Shown here: positions 25,359 to 29,920 of the stretch, one piece after another
Numbering within the stretch: the stretch's first letter is position 1
How the letters are laid out: the number at the start of each line of letters is the position of its first letter
From: Halorubrum coriense DSM 10284
GTDB lineage: Archaea; Halobacteriota; Halobacteria; Halobacteriales; Haloferacaceae
Direction: 5' to 3'
Assembly: GCF_000337035.1 (NCBI RefSeq)
Contig: NZ_AOJL01000020.1
Coordinates: 16,450 to 80,449 of the forward strand
DNA: 64,000 bases
Notes under the pieces: generated by a model
Databases searched by the model: none
Told to the model about the DNA's origin: nothing
Seen by the model: only the letters and a program-made list of their open reading frames with translations
Made by a program: the position numbers and the translations under genes

Positions 25359-25769
25359 CTACGCCACGCCTCGCTCGGCGGCCCCCTCGCGGATCTTCGT
25401 CGCGCGCTTGCGGACCCGATTGATGAGCCGCTGCGTCCGTTCCGGCTTGAACCCGTAGAAGGACGCGATCCAGTTGATGCTCCCGTACGGCTGTGTGTGG
25501 AAGTACGCGGCGAGGGTGTCGCGGCCGGCCTGGATGATCGCCGGCGGGACGCCCTCCTCGCCGACCTTCTCCTCGTCGAAGCCGTTGACGTCGAAGTAGA
25601 CGTCGGCGTACAGCTCGGCCTTCTCGGGGTCGTCGAAGTCGACGCCGCAGTGGTGCGGGGCCTCGAACCGATAGGCGGTCCGGGCGGGGGTGCTGTGCTC
25701 GACGATGCGGACGTGGAGGACGTACTCGCGGTAGACGGTCTCGTCTTCGATTGGTTCGGATCGTGACAT
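25359..25769 (-). CDS. conserved haloarchaeal hypothetical protein
   Basis: This 136-residue acidic cytosolic protein has beta-rich YVLHVRIVEHSTPARTAYRF at the start. HHCGVDFDDPEKAELYADVYFDVNGFDEE lies in the middle and a basic helix INRVRKRATKIREG at the end. I do not recognise the family. ATG 25769 is used; the longer open frame upstream is low-complexity Pro/Arg/His shadow. It lies 85 bases after the cohesin-like gene on the same strand and may be the last gene of that operon. Confidence 0.6.
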   Translation of the reverse strand: MSRSEPIEDETVYREYVLHVRIVEHSTPARTAYRFEAPHHCGVDFDDPEKAELYADVYFDVNGFDEEKVGEEGVPPAIIQAGRDTLAAYFHTQPYGSINWIASFYGFKPERTQRLINRVRKRATKIREGAAERGVA

Positions 25770-25854: not shown

Positions 25855-26571
25855 TCAGCCGCGTCGCCTCGCGCCGGCGGCCGCGAAGAGGCCGATAGCG
25901 ACGAGGGCGAGGACCGGTGAGAGCGGCAGGTCGCTCGACGTGGCGTCGGCCCCGCTTCCGTCGGCCGCGGCACCGTCGGCGGACCCGGCGTCGTCGCTCC
26001 CGGCGGACGCGGCGTCGTCGGTCGACGAGGCGTCGTCGCCGGCGACCGTCACCGTTCCCGCCCGCGTGTCGGGGGTGAAGGCGCTCCCGTCGTCCGCGTC
26101 GAACTGCCGGGGCTCGACCGCGAGTCCGGCGTCGCCCGCCCCGACGCCGGCGACGGTGACCGTCGCGAGCGTCACGTCCGTCGCGCCGGGTTCGATGGCT
26201 CCCTCCACGTCGGCGGCTTCGAGGGCGACGCTGCCGCCGTCGTCCCCGATCGCCGGCTCGGTCGTCAGACCGAACCGGTCGGGATAGCTCGCGGACTGAA
26301 TTCGGGCCGTCTCCGGGGCCTCGACCGAGAGTTCGAGGTAGTAGCCAGAGAGGCCGTCCGGCACGCTCGTGAGGACGACATCGACGGTCGTCGTCCCGTC
26401 GGGCGTCGTCGAGGCGTCGCCGACGACGACGGTCGGCCCGTCGGTCTGTGCCGCGGCCGTCCCCGCCGCCGTCGCGCCGAGGAGGGCGAGCGCCGCGAGT
26501 GCCACCGCGACGGCCGCCGTCCGGCCGCGGGTGTCGGTGAACGTCGAAAGTGAACGCGTGGGTCGTGTCAT
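25855..26571 (-). CDS. membrane-anchored cohesin-like surface protein
   Basis: This 238-residue protein has a Sec signal peptide (about 18-40, ending GTAAAQ). A cohesin-like beta domain occupies about 46-175 (PTVVVGDASTTPDGTTTVDV, then GLSGYYLELSVEAPE, ending DTRAGTVTVAG). A 40-residue Ser/Asp/Ala linker follows, and a C-terminal membrane helix ends in RRRG, like archaeal surface anchors. It aligns well with the internal cohesin-like region of the PhoX-like protein upstream (26645-29314), including the PDRFGLT/PDALGLT and DTRAGTV/NARTGVL blocks. A cohesin binds dockerin, and the upstream protein ends in one. It probably holds that enzyme on the cell surface. Confidence 0.78.
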   Translation of the reverse strand: MTRPTRSLSTFTDTRGRTAAVAVALAALALLGATAAGTAAAQTDGPTVVVGDASTTPDGTTTVDVVLTSVPDGLSGYYLELSVEAPETARIQSASYPDRFGLTTEPAIGDDGGSVALEAADVEGAIEPGATDVTLATVTVAGVGAGDAGLAVEPRQFDADDGSAFTPDTRAGTVTVAGDDASSTDDAASAGSDDAGSADGAAADGSGADATSSDLPLSPVLALVAIGLFAAAGARRRG

Positions 26572-26644
26572 GGGTATCGGATGATGAACGTGGGGCGGCG
26601 GCGATGGGACGCCGCAGGTCGGCCGCGGGGCCGACCGAGGGCCC

Positions 26645-29314
26645 TCAGTTGACCTCCTCGTAGAGGTCGACGACGTCGTCGAAGTCGAGCTGCCCGTTCT
26701 CGTTGAAGTCGTACGCCGACTCGTTCAGCCTGACGCTGTCCGACTCGAAGTTGTCGAAGAGGATCTCGATGTCCTCGTAGTCGAGGCGACCGTTCCCGTT
26801 GAGGTCCTCGTAGAGCCCGTCGCCGTCGGGGTCGGTCGGCGCCGCGCCGCCGGTCACCGTCGGCGGGCCGGTGACGAGGACGCCCGTGCGGGCGTTCGCG
26901 TCGATGGCGGTCCCCGCCTCGTCGTCCATCCGGTCGATGTCGACTTCCAGGTCGGCTGTGCCGGTGCCGTCGCCGCGTAGCGTGAGCGTCGCGAGCGGGA
27001 CGTTCCGTCCGCCCGCCTCGACGCTGCGGTCGGTGTCGGCGACGCGGACGGTCGCCGAGGAGCCGTCGTCGCTGACCTCGCTCTCGGTGAGCCCGAGCGC
27101 GTCCGGGAACTCGACGCCGGTGATGGCGGCGACGTCCGGGTCCGAGACGGAGACCGAGACCGCGGCCCCCGAGAAGCCGGTCGGGAGCGCGGACGCCGAG
27201 AGCGCCGCCTCGCCGGTCCGACCGTAGCCGATCGCCAGCGACTCGACGTCGACCTGGACGTTCGGCTGGAAGACATAGAGACCGTCGTTGGGGTACGAGC
27301 GCGAGGGGCCGCCGAAGCCGTCCTCACAGCAGAGGACCCGCCCGTCGCGCATCGCGTACACGTTGTCGATGTTGCGGAGCGCGTCGTCGGCGTCCTCGGG
27401 CCCGTCGGTGAAGTCGGGCCCGGTGATGACCGGTTCGAGCGTCGAGACGTTGTAGTCGGGTTCGAGTTCGGCGCGGTAGACGACGCCCCCGTCGACGCGG
27501 TCCATCTGGACATCGCCGGTCTCGTCGGCGAGGTCGTCGTTGAACTCGGAGATGCCGAAGTAGACGAAGTCGCCGGGGCCGGCGCCGTCGACGCTGTCGA
27601 CGCCCTCGGCCTTGTTGAACTCGATCGACGCGCCGATCTCCTTGGCGGCCGCGCGGGTCTCGAGGAAGGGGACGCGGCGGAGCGCCTCGTCGACGCCGTC
27701 GGGACCGTCCGCCTCGTACTGGGCGGCCCACTCGACTATCTCCTCGTTCGTGATGTAGTTCCGGTTACCGTTCTCGATGACTTCGAGGTCGGCCTCGCGG
27801 ACGGCGTCGCCGTAGGCGACCTCCTGCCCGAGGTCGTCCGCGTCGTACTCGGTGTGCGTCGTGAGGTAGTCGACCTGCGTGACGTCGTCGTACTCGGCGA
27901 CCCAGGACTCGACCTCGCCGTTCGTCGCGCGACCGAGCGGGATCCACTCGACTTCGAGGTTCGTGTCGGCCGGGGAGTTGCGTTCGCCGGCCTCCGCGGC
28001 GTTCGCGGCGTCGTTGGTGATCTTCGGGGCGTAGAGCGTGCCCTCGATGTCGTCGGTGTCGTCGTAGCTCGGGATCGGGTCGGCGGCGACGAACTTGTAG
28101 ATCCCCTTGCTGTCGCCGTCGGAGCAGCCGTACAGCGTCCGTTCGTCGCCCAGGAAGTCCGGCGCCTCCCACGAGGCGCGGCCCGCGACCCAGTACTTCA
28201 TCGGGTCCGGCTCCTCGGCCGTCGGCTCGCGGAAGTCCACGTGGTAGCCGTAGCGGTAGGGGTTCGGGTAGACGTCGCCGATGGGCGTCAGATCGTTGCT
28301 CTCGTCGGCCTGGTCGACCGGGTCGGCGCCGAGGTAGTACGCGAGGAACTCGACGCCGGTCATCGCCCAGTAGCCCTGGATGTACCAGCCGTCGACCTCG
28401 TCGTACTCGTCGACCGCGCTCTGGATCGCCGAGGGGTTCGGCCGGTTCCAGAACTGGCACGCGCCGAGGAGCCCCTCGCCGCTGCCGGCGTCGACGACGT
28501 CGCCGACCGTGTTCGTCAGCGAGACGCGGGGGTGCGCGTAGTTCTCCTCCGAGGAGACCGGGGTCTCCCACGGGCTGAGGTCGCCGTAGCAGTTGATTCG
28601 GGTGCCGCCGAGCTCGCGGAACGCCTCCGTGTTCGGCAGGTTCATCGCGTCCTCGGGGTCGGCGCTCCACTCGCCGTCCGCGTCCTGGCTGATGAAGACC
28701 CGCGAGATGTTCCCGGGGCTGTTCTCCCAGTTGGTGAACAGGTAGCCCTCGGTGCCGTCCTCGTCCGTCGGGACGAACTGGTTACAGTCCGGGTTCGTCG
28801 CCGCGGCCCCGTACTGCGTCCCCGCGAAGTTGCTCTGGGTGATGTCGGTGCCGTCGGGCGTCTGCGTGACGCCGAGCAGCTCGTCGCCGCCGCCGATGGG
28901 TTCGCGGCCCTGAACGAGGACTTCGTACTGGCCGGCGGCCGAGCGGACCCGGCGCTGTTTCTCCTGCGTATCGGGGATACCGACCTCCGGGAAGTCGTCG
29001 TTGTTGCCGTCGAACTCGAAGTTGAAGCCGCTGAAGTAGCCGACCGCCGCCCGGCCGAACGGCTCCGGGTTCGCCGCTTCGGGGTGCTGGAGGCTGTACA
29101 GGAGCGAGCCGTCCTCGAAGACGAACGGGCCCGTCACCTCCGCCCCGAAGGCCGTGGTCGAGAACCGCTTGAGGCCTCCTCGGACGCTGGGCGCGCCGGG
29201 GGTGTCTCCCTCCGGAATTTCGCTCTCACTCGCGCTGGCGACCCCCGCGACGCTCGCGCCGAGGGCGGCAGCAGTTGACGTTGCGATCAGGCTCCGCCGG
29301 TTCAGATCCACCAT
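26645..29314 (-). CDS. Tat-exported PhoX-like (DUF839) protein with cohesin-like and dockerin domains
   Basis: This 889-residue protein has a Tat signal (NRRSLIATSTAAALGA). Residues about 40-670 are a DUF839/PhoX-like region; characterised PhoX enzymes are Ca2+/Fe3+-dependent alkaline phosphatases. Residues about 690-820 form a cohesin-like beta domain. Residues 828-889 form a dockerin with two Ca2+ loops, DLNGNGRLDYED (837-848) and DFNENGQLDFDD (869-880). A membrane-anchored cohesin-like protein is encoded 73 bases downstream, so the enzyme is probably docked at the cell surface and may self-associate. TATA-like elements lie in an AT-rich upstream stretch (29338-29355). Whether it is a phosphatase is unproven. 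Confidence 0.83.
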   Translation of the reverse strand: MVDLNRRSLIATSTAAALGASVAGVASASESEIPEGDTPGAPSVRGGLKRFSTTAFGAEVTGPFVFEDGSLLYSLQHPEAANPEPFGRAAVGYFSGFNFEFDGNNDDFPEVGIPDTQEKQRRVRSAAGQYEVLVQGREPIGGGDELLGVTQTPDGTDITQSNFAGTQYGAAATNPDCNQFVPTDEDGTEGYLFTNWENSPGNISRVFISQDADGEWSADPEDAMNLPNTEAFRELGGTRINCYGDLSPWETPVSSEENYAHPRVSLTNTVGDVVDAGSGEGLLGACQFWNRPNPSAIQSAVDEYDEVDGWYIQGYWAMTGVEFLAYYLGADPVDQADESNDLTPIGDVYPNPYRYGYHVDFREPTAEEPDPMKYWVAGRASWEAPDFLGDERTLYGCSDGDSKGIYKFVAADPIPSYDDTDDIEGTLYAPKITNDAANAAEAGERNSPADTNLEVEWIPLGRATNGEVESWVAEYDDVTQVDYLTTHTEYDADDLGQEVAYGDAVREADLEVIENGNRNYITNEEIVEWAAQYEADGPDGVDEALRRVPFLETRAAAKEIGASIEFNKAEGVDSVDGAGPGDFVYFGISEFNDDLADETGDVQMDRVDGGVVYRAELEPDYNVSTLEPVITGPDFTDGPEDADDALRNIDNVYAMRDGRVLCCEDGFGGPSRSYPNDGLYVFQPNVQVDVESLAIGYGRTGEAALSASALPTGFSGAAVSVSVSDPDVAAITGVEFPDALGLTESEVSDDGSSATVRVADTDRSVEAGGRNVPLATLTLRGDGTGTADLEVDIDRMDDEAGTAIDANARTGVLVTGPPTVTGGAAPTDPDGDGLYEDLNGNGRLDYEDIEILFDNFESDSVRLNESAYDFNENGQLDFDDVVDLYEEVN

Positions 29315-29563: not shown

Positions 29564-29920
29564 TCAGAAGGTGATGACTTCGTAGTCGTCGTCGACGAGC
29601 GACCGAACGCTCGGGTGACCGTCGTACTCGGCGAGGGTGGCCAGCCCGGAGGCGGAGACCGCGTCCGCGACGTCGAACGCGCTCGCACAGTAGTCGCAGA
29701 CCGCCGCGTCGTCGCGGACCGCCTGGTACAGCTCGTGGTAATCGCTCTCCTCGTCTTCCAGTTCCGGGATCCACTGCGTCCCGGCTCCGTCGAAGATGAG
29801 CTTCAGCTCGTCGCCGTCGGTCTCCGCGAACTCCTTGGCCGCCTCCAAGGCGTTCGCGAGGCGACCGTAATCTGCGTGCGACTCGTTCCCGGCGAGGATC
29901 ACGATTGCGGCTTTTGCCAT
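29564..29920 (-). CDS. DsrE/DsrF-like family protein
   Basis: This 118-residue cytosolic protein has the DsrE fold pattern. It starts KAAIVILAGNESHADYGRLA, followed by KLIFDGAGTQWI and a Cys pair in VCDYCASAFDVAD at about residues 74-77. DsrE-like proteins take part in sulfur relay or are of unknown function; the Cys position suits a sulfur-carrying residue. It stands alone. The 200 bases on its 3' side (29340-29560) hold only promoter-like AT-rich sequence for the PhoX-like operon. Confidence 0.78.
   Translation of the reverse strand: MAKAAIVILAGNESHADYGRLANALEAAKEFAETDGDELKLIFDGAGTQWIPELEDEESDYHELYQAVRDDAAVCDYCASAFDVADAVSASGLATLAEYDGHPSVRSLVDDDYEVITF

Follow-up and report, generated by a model that had tools for sequence, protein, structure and literature searches.

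A candidate surface-docked PhoX-family enzyme and its membrane-held cohesin partner in Halorubrum coriense and other haloarchaea

To our knowledge, nearly all known cases of dockerin modules docking into cohesin modules come from the breakdown of plant polymers. What the two modules are for outside plant-polymer breakdown has been called an open question (PMC5244752). A stretch of 64,000 nucleotides from the haloarchaeon Halorubrum coriense DSM 10284 (contig NZ_AOJL01000020.1, positions 16,450 to 80,449; hereafter the window, in which all positions below are counted) raises this question in a concrete form, as it holds a phoX-like gene whose product ends in a cohesin-like domain and a dockerin-like domain, and next to it a gene for a small cohesin-like protein with a membrane tail. 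Why would a PhoX-like enzyme carry a docking tail, and into what would it dock? Our analysis of the locus and its relatives points, with a probability of roughly 0.7, to the two genes making a surface-docked PhoX-family enzyme.

Domain composition of the two neighbouring proteins

The phoX-like gene (26645..29314; the features of both genes, and of the gene that follows them, all lie on the minus strand) encodes 889 amino acids (aa), which its open reading frame (ORF), Pfam matches and homologue profiles divide into a twin-arginine translocation (Tat)-type N-terminus, an enzyme part (residues 1-685), a cohesin (688-820) and a dockerin (827-889). The twin-arginine motif (NRRSLIATSTAAALGASVAGVAS) was read from the sequence of the N-terminus (29228..29314), and its R6 and R7 are invariant in 39 homologues. 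The anchored cohesin gene (25855..26571) starts 73 bp past the phoX-like stop and encodes 238 aa, for which sequence and model indicate a signal peptide, a cohesin at about residues 45-178, a disordered acidic linker and a C-terminal hydrophobic segment followed by RRRG; the membrane tail (25858..25932) was assigned from the sequence. The original prediction had described the first protein as PhoX-like, with a cohesin-like domain and a two-loop dockerin, and the second as a membrane-anchored cohesin-like protein that aligns with the internal one, and both descriptions are borne out by the family matches, homologue profiles, alignments and models presented here.

The enzyme part (27260..29314), delimited by Pfam and by alignment with a solved structure of Pseudomonas fluorescens PhoX (3zwu), matches the Pfam PhoX family PF05787 with an E-value of 2.8e-13 and 50.3 bits, above the curated cut-off of 24, and a family profile of the haloarchaeal enzyme matches solved PhoX (3zwu/4amf; E 5e-12). 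Residues Cys179, Glu273 and Asp292 of 3zwu align with C242, E383 and D399, which are invariant in 39 aligned homologues. All three are metal-site residues of PhoX. Asp292 is a named active-site residue of PhoX (PMC11098088). The order of propeller segments differs from that in bacterial PhoX: enzyme residues 39-83 (29015-29209, minus strand) match the C-terminal PhoX segment 514-559 (E 0.008 on their own), and 13 of 28 N-terminal pieces of homologues match Pfam PhoX by themselves. Since an N-terminal segment matches a C-terminal one, the haloarchaeal PhoX-like propeller seems to be circularly permuted relative to bacterial PhoX. With the P. fluorescens enzyme it shares the Pfam family, Tat-type export and the metal-site positions; the bacterial enzyme has no docking tail, whereas the haloarchaeal one does.

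An enzyme part with some other beta-propeller activity, or a binding protein without phosphatase activity, would fit the remote and rearranged similarity to PhoX, and our search, which did not extend to subscription papers, found no published study of haloarchaeal PhoX or of haloarchaeal cohesins. However, the Pfam PhoX score lies above the cut-off, the positions aligned with Cys179, Glu273 and Asp292 are conserved, and relatives bear the same tail on PhoD, 5'-nucleotidase and GDPD proteins (see below), so that we consider a non-phosphatase role unlikely.

The tail cohesin of the PhoX-like protein (26855..27253) was located by alignment, homologue profiles, AlphaFold2 and Foldseek. Over 107 aa, residues 708-813 of the PhoX-like protein and the downstream protein are 36% identical (E 2e-14). 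Neither window domain matches Pfam Cohesin (PF00963). Of 68 homologous domains, 9 match this family (best 2.2e-6), and no other family is matched by as many. Sequence searches with profiles of the cohesin part by itself did not reach any solved cohesin, and folds had to be compared. Single-chain AlphaFold2 models were built with natural homologues and searched against the PDB with Foldseek. The tail model had a mean predicted local distance difference test score (pLDDT) of 91.8, and in the anchored-cohesin model 131 residues had a pLDDT of at least 90. In this structure-prediction check, which the original prediction had itself proposed, the 50 best listed matches of both models were cohesins only, with best E-values of 1.8e-9 and 3e-9 (probability score 1.00) for the two domains; they included the Archaeoglobus fulgidus cohesin 2xdh, which ranked sixth for the window anchored cohesin. 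According to these models, both window domains have the cohesin jelly-roll fold.

The dockerin (26648..26836), assigned by Pfam, profiles and alignment, resembles type I dockerins in having two 12-residue F-hand Ca2+-binding loops within about 60 aa, with ligands that are conserved in homologues. The alignment places loop 1 at D837-D848 (26771..26806; it contains N841, R843 and Y846) and loop 2 at D869-D880 (26675..26710). The Pfam model Dockerin_1 scores under its cut-off on the window protein (E 0.21, or 0.0055 with the isolated domain) and is matched by 47 of 47 dockerin-domain homologues at E <= 1, the best at 3.8e-10; a profile of these dockerins recovers the solved dockerins 1daq, 2mte and 1ohz, among EF-hand proteins.

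The weak Pfam scores in the window genome, and a cohesin part that reaches no solved cohesin by sequence profile, would also suit a mere beta-sandwich spacer followed by a Ca2+-stabilised cap, the neighbouring gene having arisen by duplication and doing another job. This explanation appears very improbable given that the 50 best listed structural matches are cohesins, and it is further contradicted by the strict gene pairing, by the coupled loss of tail and anchor, and by a loop-1 change limited to anchor-less genomes, all of which are described in the following section.

Gene pairing and anchor loss across haloarchaea

Loci were fetched from many haloarchaeal genomes and scored with profiles made from homologues of the window genes, the E-values of which refer to the fetched ORF set. 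Loci numbered from L143 on were picked by tail similarity, and other loci come from an unselected sample of 243 genomes; a cohesin gene was counted as adjacent within 5 kb, and tandem copies in three loci (L107, L115 and L172) were counted as anchored. The closest relatives of the window pair are from Halorubrum (89% in the tail for a contig of an uncultured Halorubrum; another relative, genome G219, matches a contig of Hrr. saccharovorum), and the full-length arrangement is present in dozens of haloarchaeal species, which excludes a chance resemblance.

Tail and anchor occur together with few exceptions. Of the 118 different enzymes, 68 combine the tail with an adjacent anchored cohesin and 41 are without either; the tail occurs by itself in 8, and the one remaining enzyme, which has no tail, is a paralogue located next to a tailed pair (Fisher p = 7e-24, uncorrected for kinship, which inflates such co-occurrence counts). 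Within the 243-genome sample, a cohesin gene is present at about 45 of 47 tailed loci, and the 40 tail-less loci include none with a cohesin gene of its own. On a tree of the enzyme part, from which the tail columns were excluded, tail and anchor each change about 9 times, with 5.8 of 7 independent pairs changing in the same direction and 0 in the opposite one (sign test, p about 0.03). The cohesin gene as a general neighbour of phoX was considered and rejected (0 of 41 tail-less loci).

Most tail-less enzymes stop just past the enzyme part, and a few end in a glycine-rich membrane tail of their own; to judge from the gene sequences, one enzyme occurs in free, directly anchored and docked versions. 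At three loci (L146, L064 and L176) tail-less PhoX paralogues adjoin the tailed PhoX/cohesin pair, which places docked and free versions side by side. Some copies are broken: the anchored cohesin is split by a frame break in L107, a stop lies inside the anchored cohesin match of genome G220 (L108), and the PhoX frame is broken in L119 and L181.

A conserved gene of 136 aa (25359..25769), recognised by its homologues in the loci of relatives, follows the cohesin gene after 85 bp. Its homologue is present in 40 of 41 loci with neither tail nor anchor, in 67 of 67 with both, in 8 of 8 with the tail alone and at the single paralogue locus (1 of 1). The cohesin gene sits exactly between phoX and this gene, and the distance from the enzyme stop to the end of the 136-aa gene, measurable only where the 136-aa frame is listed downstream on the same strand, is 461-610 bp in anchor-less loci (n = 8) and at least 1211 bp in loci with the cohesin gene (n = 25). 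Since the 136-aa gene persists with or without it, the cohesin gene is a facultative element flanked by two constant neighbours. No NCBIfam model matches the enzyme, the anchored cohesin or the 136-aa neighbour. On the other side of the pair, a 118-aa gene (29567-29920) was considered as part of the system and dropped, this neighbour not being conserved.

Seven of the 8 tailed enzymes that lack an anchored cohesin form one clade (Halegenticoccus, Halocatena, Halomarina, Halalkalicoccus), and the eighth, from Halogranum (L162), is a separate loss; kinship thus leaves one clear loss event and one recent one. The genomes searched for these enzymes (G057, G040, G243-G247) gave no cohesin outside PhoX tails. 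Where an anchor is adjacent, loop 1 of the dockerin is nearly fixed, with N841 in 68 of 68, R843 in 67 of 68 and Y846 in 68 of 68 enzymes. In the anchor-less clade, Y846 is replaced by D, R, G or H in 7/7 and R843 by E or D in 5/7, position 851 (mostly I, L or V) has become T or A in 7/7, and Y885 has become S or R in 6/7; the Ca2+ ligands and the loop-2 aromatic residue F/Y878 are kept in 7/7. Y846 occupies loop position 10, which we take to be the recognition-residue site of classical dockerins, and it is retained in Halogranum, the recent loser of the anchor. The tail has also diverged more, relative to the enzyme, where the anchor is missing than where it is present (cohesin, 2.7-3.2 versus 1.6-1.8; dockerin, 2.3 versus 0.7-1.2). 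The loop-1 changes and the faster divergence would be in keeping with weaker selection on the surface through which the anchored cohesin is bound, and coupled gene loss and dockerin residue changes together support a tail that works with the anchored cohesin. In part, these results and the PhoX family membership support the docked extracellular phosphatase of the original prediction, of which docking, catalysis and the possible polymer are still predicted properties.

Proposed surface docking and possible self-assembly

How would such a system work? We propose that the C-terminal segment of the small cohesin protein keeps it in the membrane after export, with its cohesin on the outside of the cell. 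The PhoX-like enzyme, without a membrane anchor of its own, would be exported folded by the Tat route, and its Ca2+-loaded C-terminal dockerin would plug into the anchored cohesin, mainly via the loop-1/helix-1 side (R843, Y846). The enzyme's own cohesin would offer a further socket, into which a second PhoX could dock to give a short chain or, among the relatives, a different tailed enzyme. Docking of this kind would keep the released phosphate at the cell surface. As to the membrane attachment, nearly all partner cohesins carry a C-terminal hydrophobic segment, 17 of 52 homologous anchored cohesins match the PGF-CTERM model TIGR04126, and archaeosortase A is encoded in the window genome.

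Several points weigh against this reading. The phosphatase activity of the PhoX-like protein is deduced from remote homology, and the cohesin and dockerin modules both score under the Pfam cut-offs in the window genome. The window anchored cohesin does not match TIGR04126, and its processing by archaeosortase is therefore putative; a plain C-terminal membrane helix would serve equally well. The dockerin residues were lost in one clade, essentially a single event with varied replacements. Finally, 8 tailed enzymes occur in genomes without a second free cohesin, so the tail is of some use without an anchor.

This last point leads to a different order of events, in which self-assembly comes first: the dockerin would bind the cohesin of another PhoX, forming chains or dimers, and the anchored cohesin would merely cap or tether them. 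Beyond their existence, the 8 anchor-less enzymes are compatible with this in that their Ca2+ loops and Y/F878 are kept. The two cohesins of the system also differ at one aligned site, 3 residues ahead of an almost invariant Asp: anchored cohesins have Glu118 (64 of 64) and tail cohesins Arg757 (60 of 68), and the anchor-less enzymes keep the Arg-type tail cohesin (8 of 8). The exchange of R843 for E or D in 5 of the 7 clade members, beside a kept Arg-type cohesin, hints at a switch to self-binding, as if the dockerin had moved from a Glu-type to an Arg-type socket. This reading, a hint, presupposes that the site lies on the docking face, and the faster divergence of the tail after anchor loss is what would be expected if the anchored cohesin were the chief partner. 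Type I dockerins have two symmetric binding faces (PMC12484212). As anchored and tail cohesins belong to different classes, the simplest job for the dockerin is anchoring, with a polymer as an option. Self-assembly as the primary role is conceivable but, on this evidence, rather doubtful, and we retain docking to the anchored cohesin as the preferred explanation.

The pair has a precedent in the archaeon A. fulgidus, where a noncellulosomal dockerin and cohesin reside on separate proteins with consecutive ORF numbers (ORF2375/ORF2376), much as the window pair is made by neighbouring genes. Both A. fulgidus cohesins reportedly bind the single dockerin, in work by Voronov-Goldman from 2011. The binding of the A. 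fulgidus dockerin to cohesin has been measured and is strong and specific (PMC9705933), and the statement of the original prediction that such archaeal complexes are poorly described needs to be qualified to this extent. The window pair differs from that of A. fulgidus in its link to a PhoX enzyme, its Tat-type export and the PGF-CTERM anchoring predicted in relatives. The same order, a cohesin-dockerin tail and then a cohesin gene, is present on an Archaeoglobaceae contig (L210), where the cargo is an LVIVD-repeat protein, and the same tail and cohesin gene are found in anaerobic methanotrophic (ANME) archaea (L205, L211 and L221). The published ANME surface proteins bear dockerins and cohesins and include scaffoldin-like forms; their cargo commonly consists of ABC-transporter binding proteins and other proteins, with no mention of phosphatases (PMC9012536, PMC5244752). 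On the ANME-2 contig L205, a protein that looks subtilisin-like by eye carries the cohesin-dockerin tail and is followed by a short, adaptor-like cohesin protein ending in a canonical-looking dockerin.

With the bacterial type I cellulosome the window pair shares the two folds and the logic of an enzyme-borne dockerin and a cell-held cohesin. The cellulosome, however, has a multi-cohesin scaffoldin and several dockerin enzymes, whereas the window genome has no scaffoldin and totals one dockerin and two cohesins; a degenerate cellulosome was rejected because neither a scaffoldin nor a further dockerin protein is present there. The idea of a cellulosome-like logic with no cellulase, put forward in the original prediction, thus holds for the window genome and does not extend to all haloarchaea. 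Scaffoldin-like loci, whose proteins have 3 to 5 cohesins or more and in some cases a dockerin, were seen in Haladaptatus sp. DYF46 (L128/L213) and at further haloarchaeal loci (L135, L136, L264-L267, L272, L274-L276 and L287), and their neighbours include dockerin-bearing proteins of the GH5 cellulase family, 3-keto-disaccharide hydrolase/GSDH proteins and malectin proteins. By their predicted gene content, these multi-cohesin loci are cellulosome-like systems in haloarchaea.

The same tail on other phosphorus enzymes

The original prediction did not foresee that the tail recurs on several unrelated phosphorus-releasing enzymes. Other haloarchaeal proteins with the same cohesin-dockerin tail include 12 PhoD, 4 5'-nucleotidase, 6 SNase-domain and 1 GDPD protein, as well as 3 choice-of-anchor-I propellers, 1 GH5 protein and several unlabelled ones. 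The SNase and GDPD tailed proteins have a cohesin gene of their own. The tails of the PhoD and choice-of-anchor-I proteins and of three of the four 5'-nucleotidase genes are "orphan" tails, with no anchor gene adjoining. Of the 13 genomes with orphan tails, 12 also encode a tailed PhoX with its anchored cohesin, against a background of about 19% of sampled genomes; the genomes are not independent of each other. The exception is Natronococcus jeotgali (G203; L125/L188), which has a tailed PhoD and in which no PhoX tail or second cohesin was found, the contig ending 391 bp past the gene. The orphan dockerins have the loop-1 Tyr in 18 of 18 and the Arg in 17 of 18 cases. In one genome (G266) the profile gives a single free cohesin beside two tailed enzymes, PhoX and PhoD, and in another (G348) three of the four cohesin matches lie inside tailed proteins.

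Extracellular DNA serves haloarchaea mainly as a supply of phosphorus, and a thermonuclease lipoprotein is required for this in Haloferax (PMC3929857, PMC8443641). The same tail on several phosphorus enzymes, taken together with DNA as a source of phosphorus, makes a docked phosphorus-scavenging set a reasonable hypothesis. Tentatively, and at somewhat less than even odds, we picture a cellulosome-like complex in which one membrane-held cohesin takes several enzymes with cohesin-dockerin tails (PhoX, PhoD and 5'-nucleotidase, joined in certain lineages by GDPD and SNase-domain proteins that have their own anchors), tail cohesins provide for chaining, and DNA and organic phosphates are degraded at the surface. 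No PhoD was found in the window genome, which rules out a tailed PhoD as partner of the window PhoX; the window may represent a minimal form of such a complex, with PhoX only.

If these readings are correct, a phosphatase docked into a membrane socket reserved for it, together with a tail shared by unrelated phosphorus-releasing enzymes, would assign archaeal cohesins a definite function that can be put to the test, and salt-stable, Ca2+-dependent docking pairs of this kind would make useful tools. For the organisms themselves, docking would explain how DNA-using haloarchaea could retain the freed phosphate at the cell.

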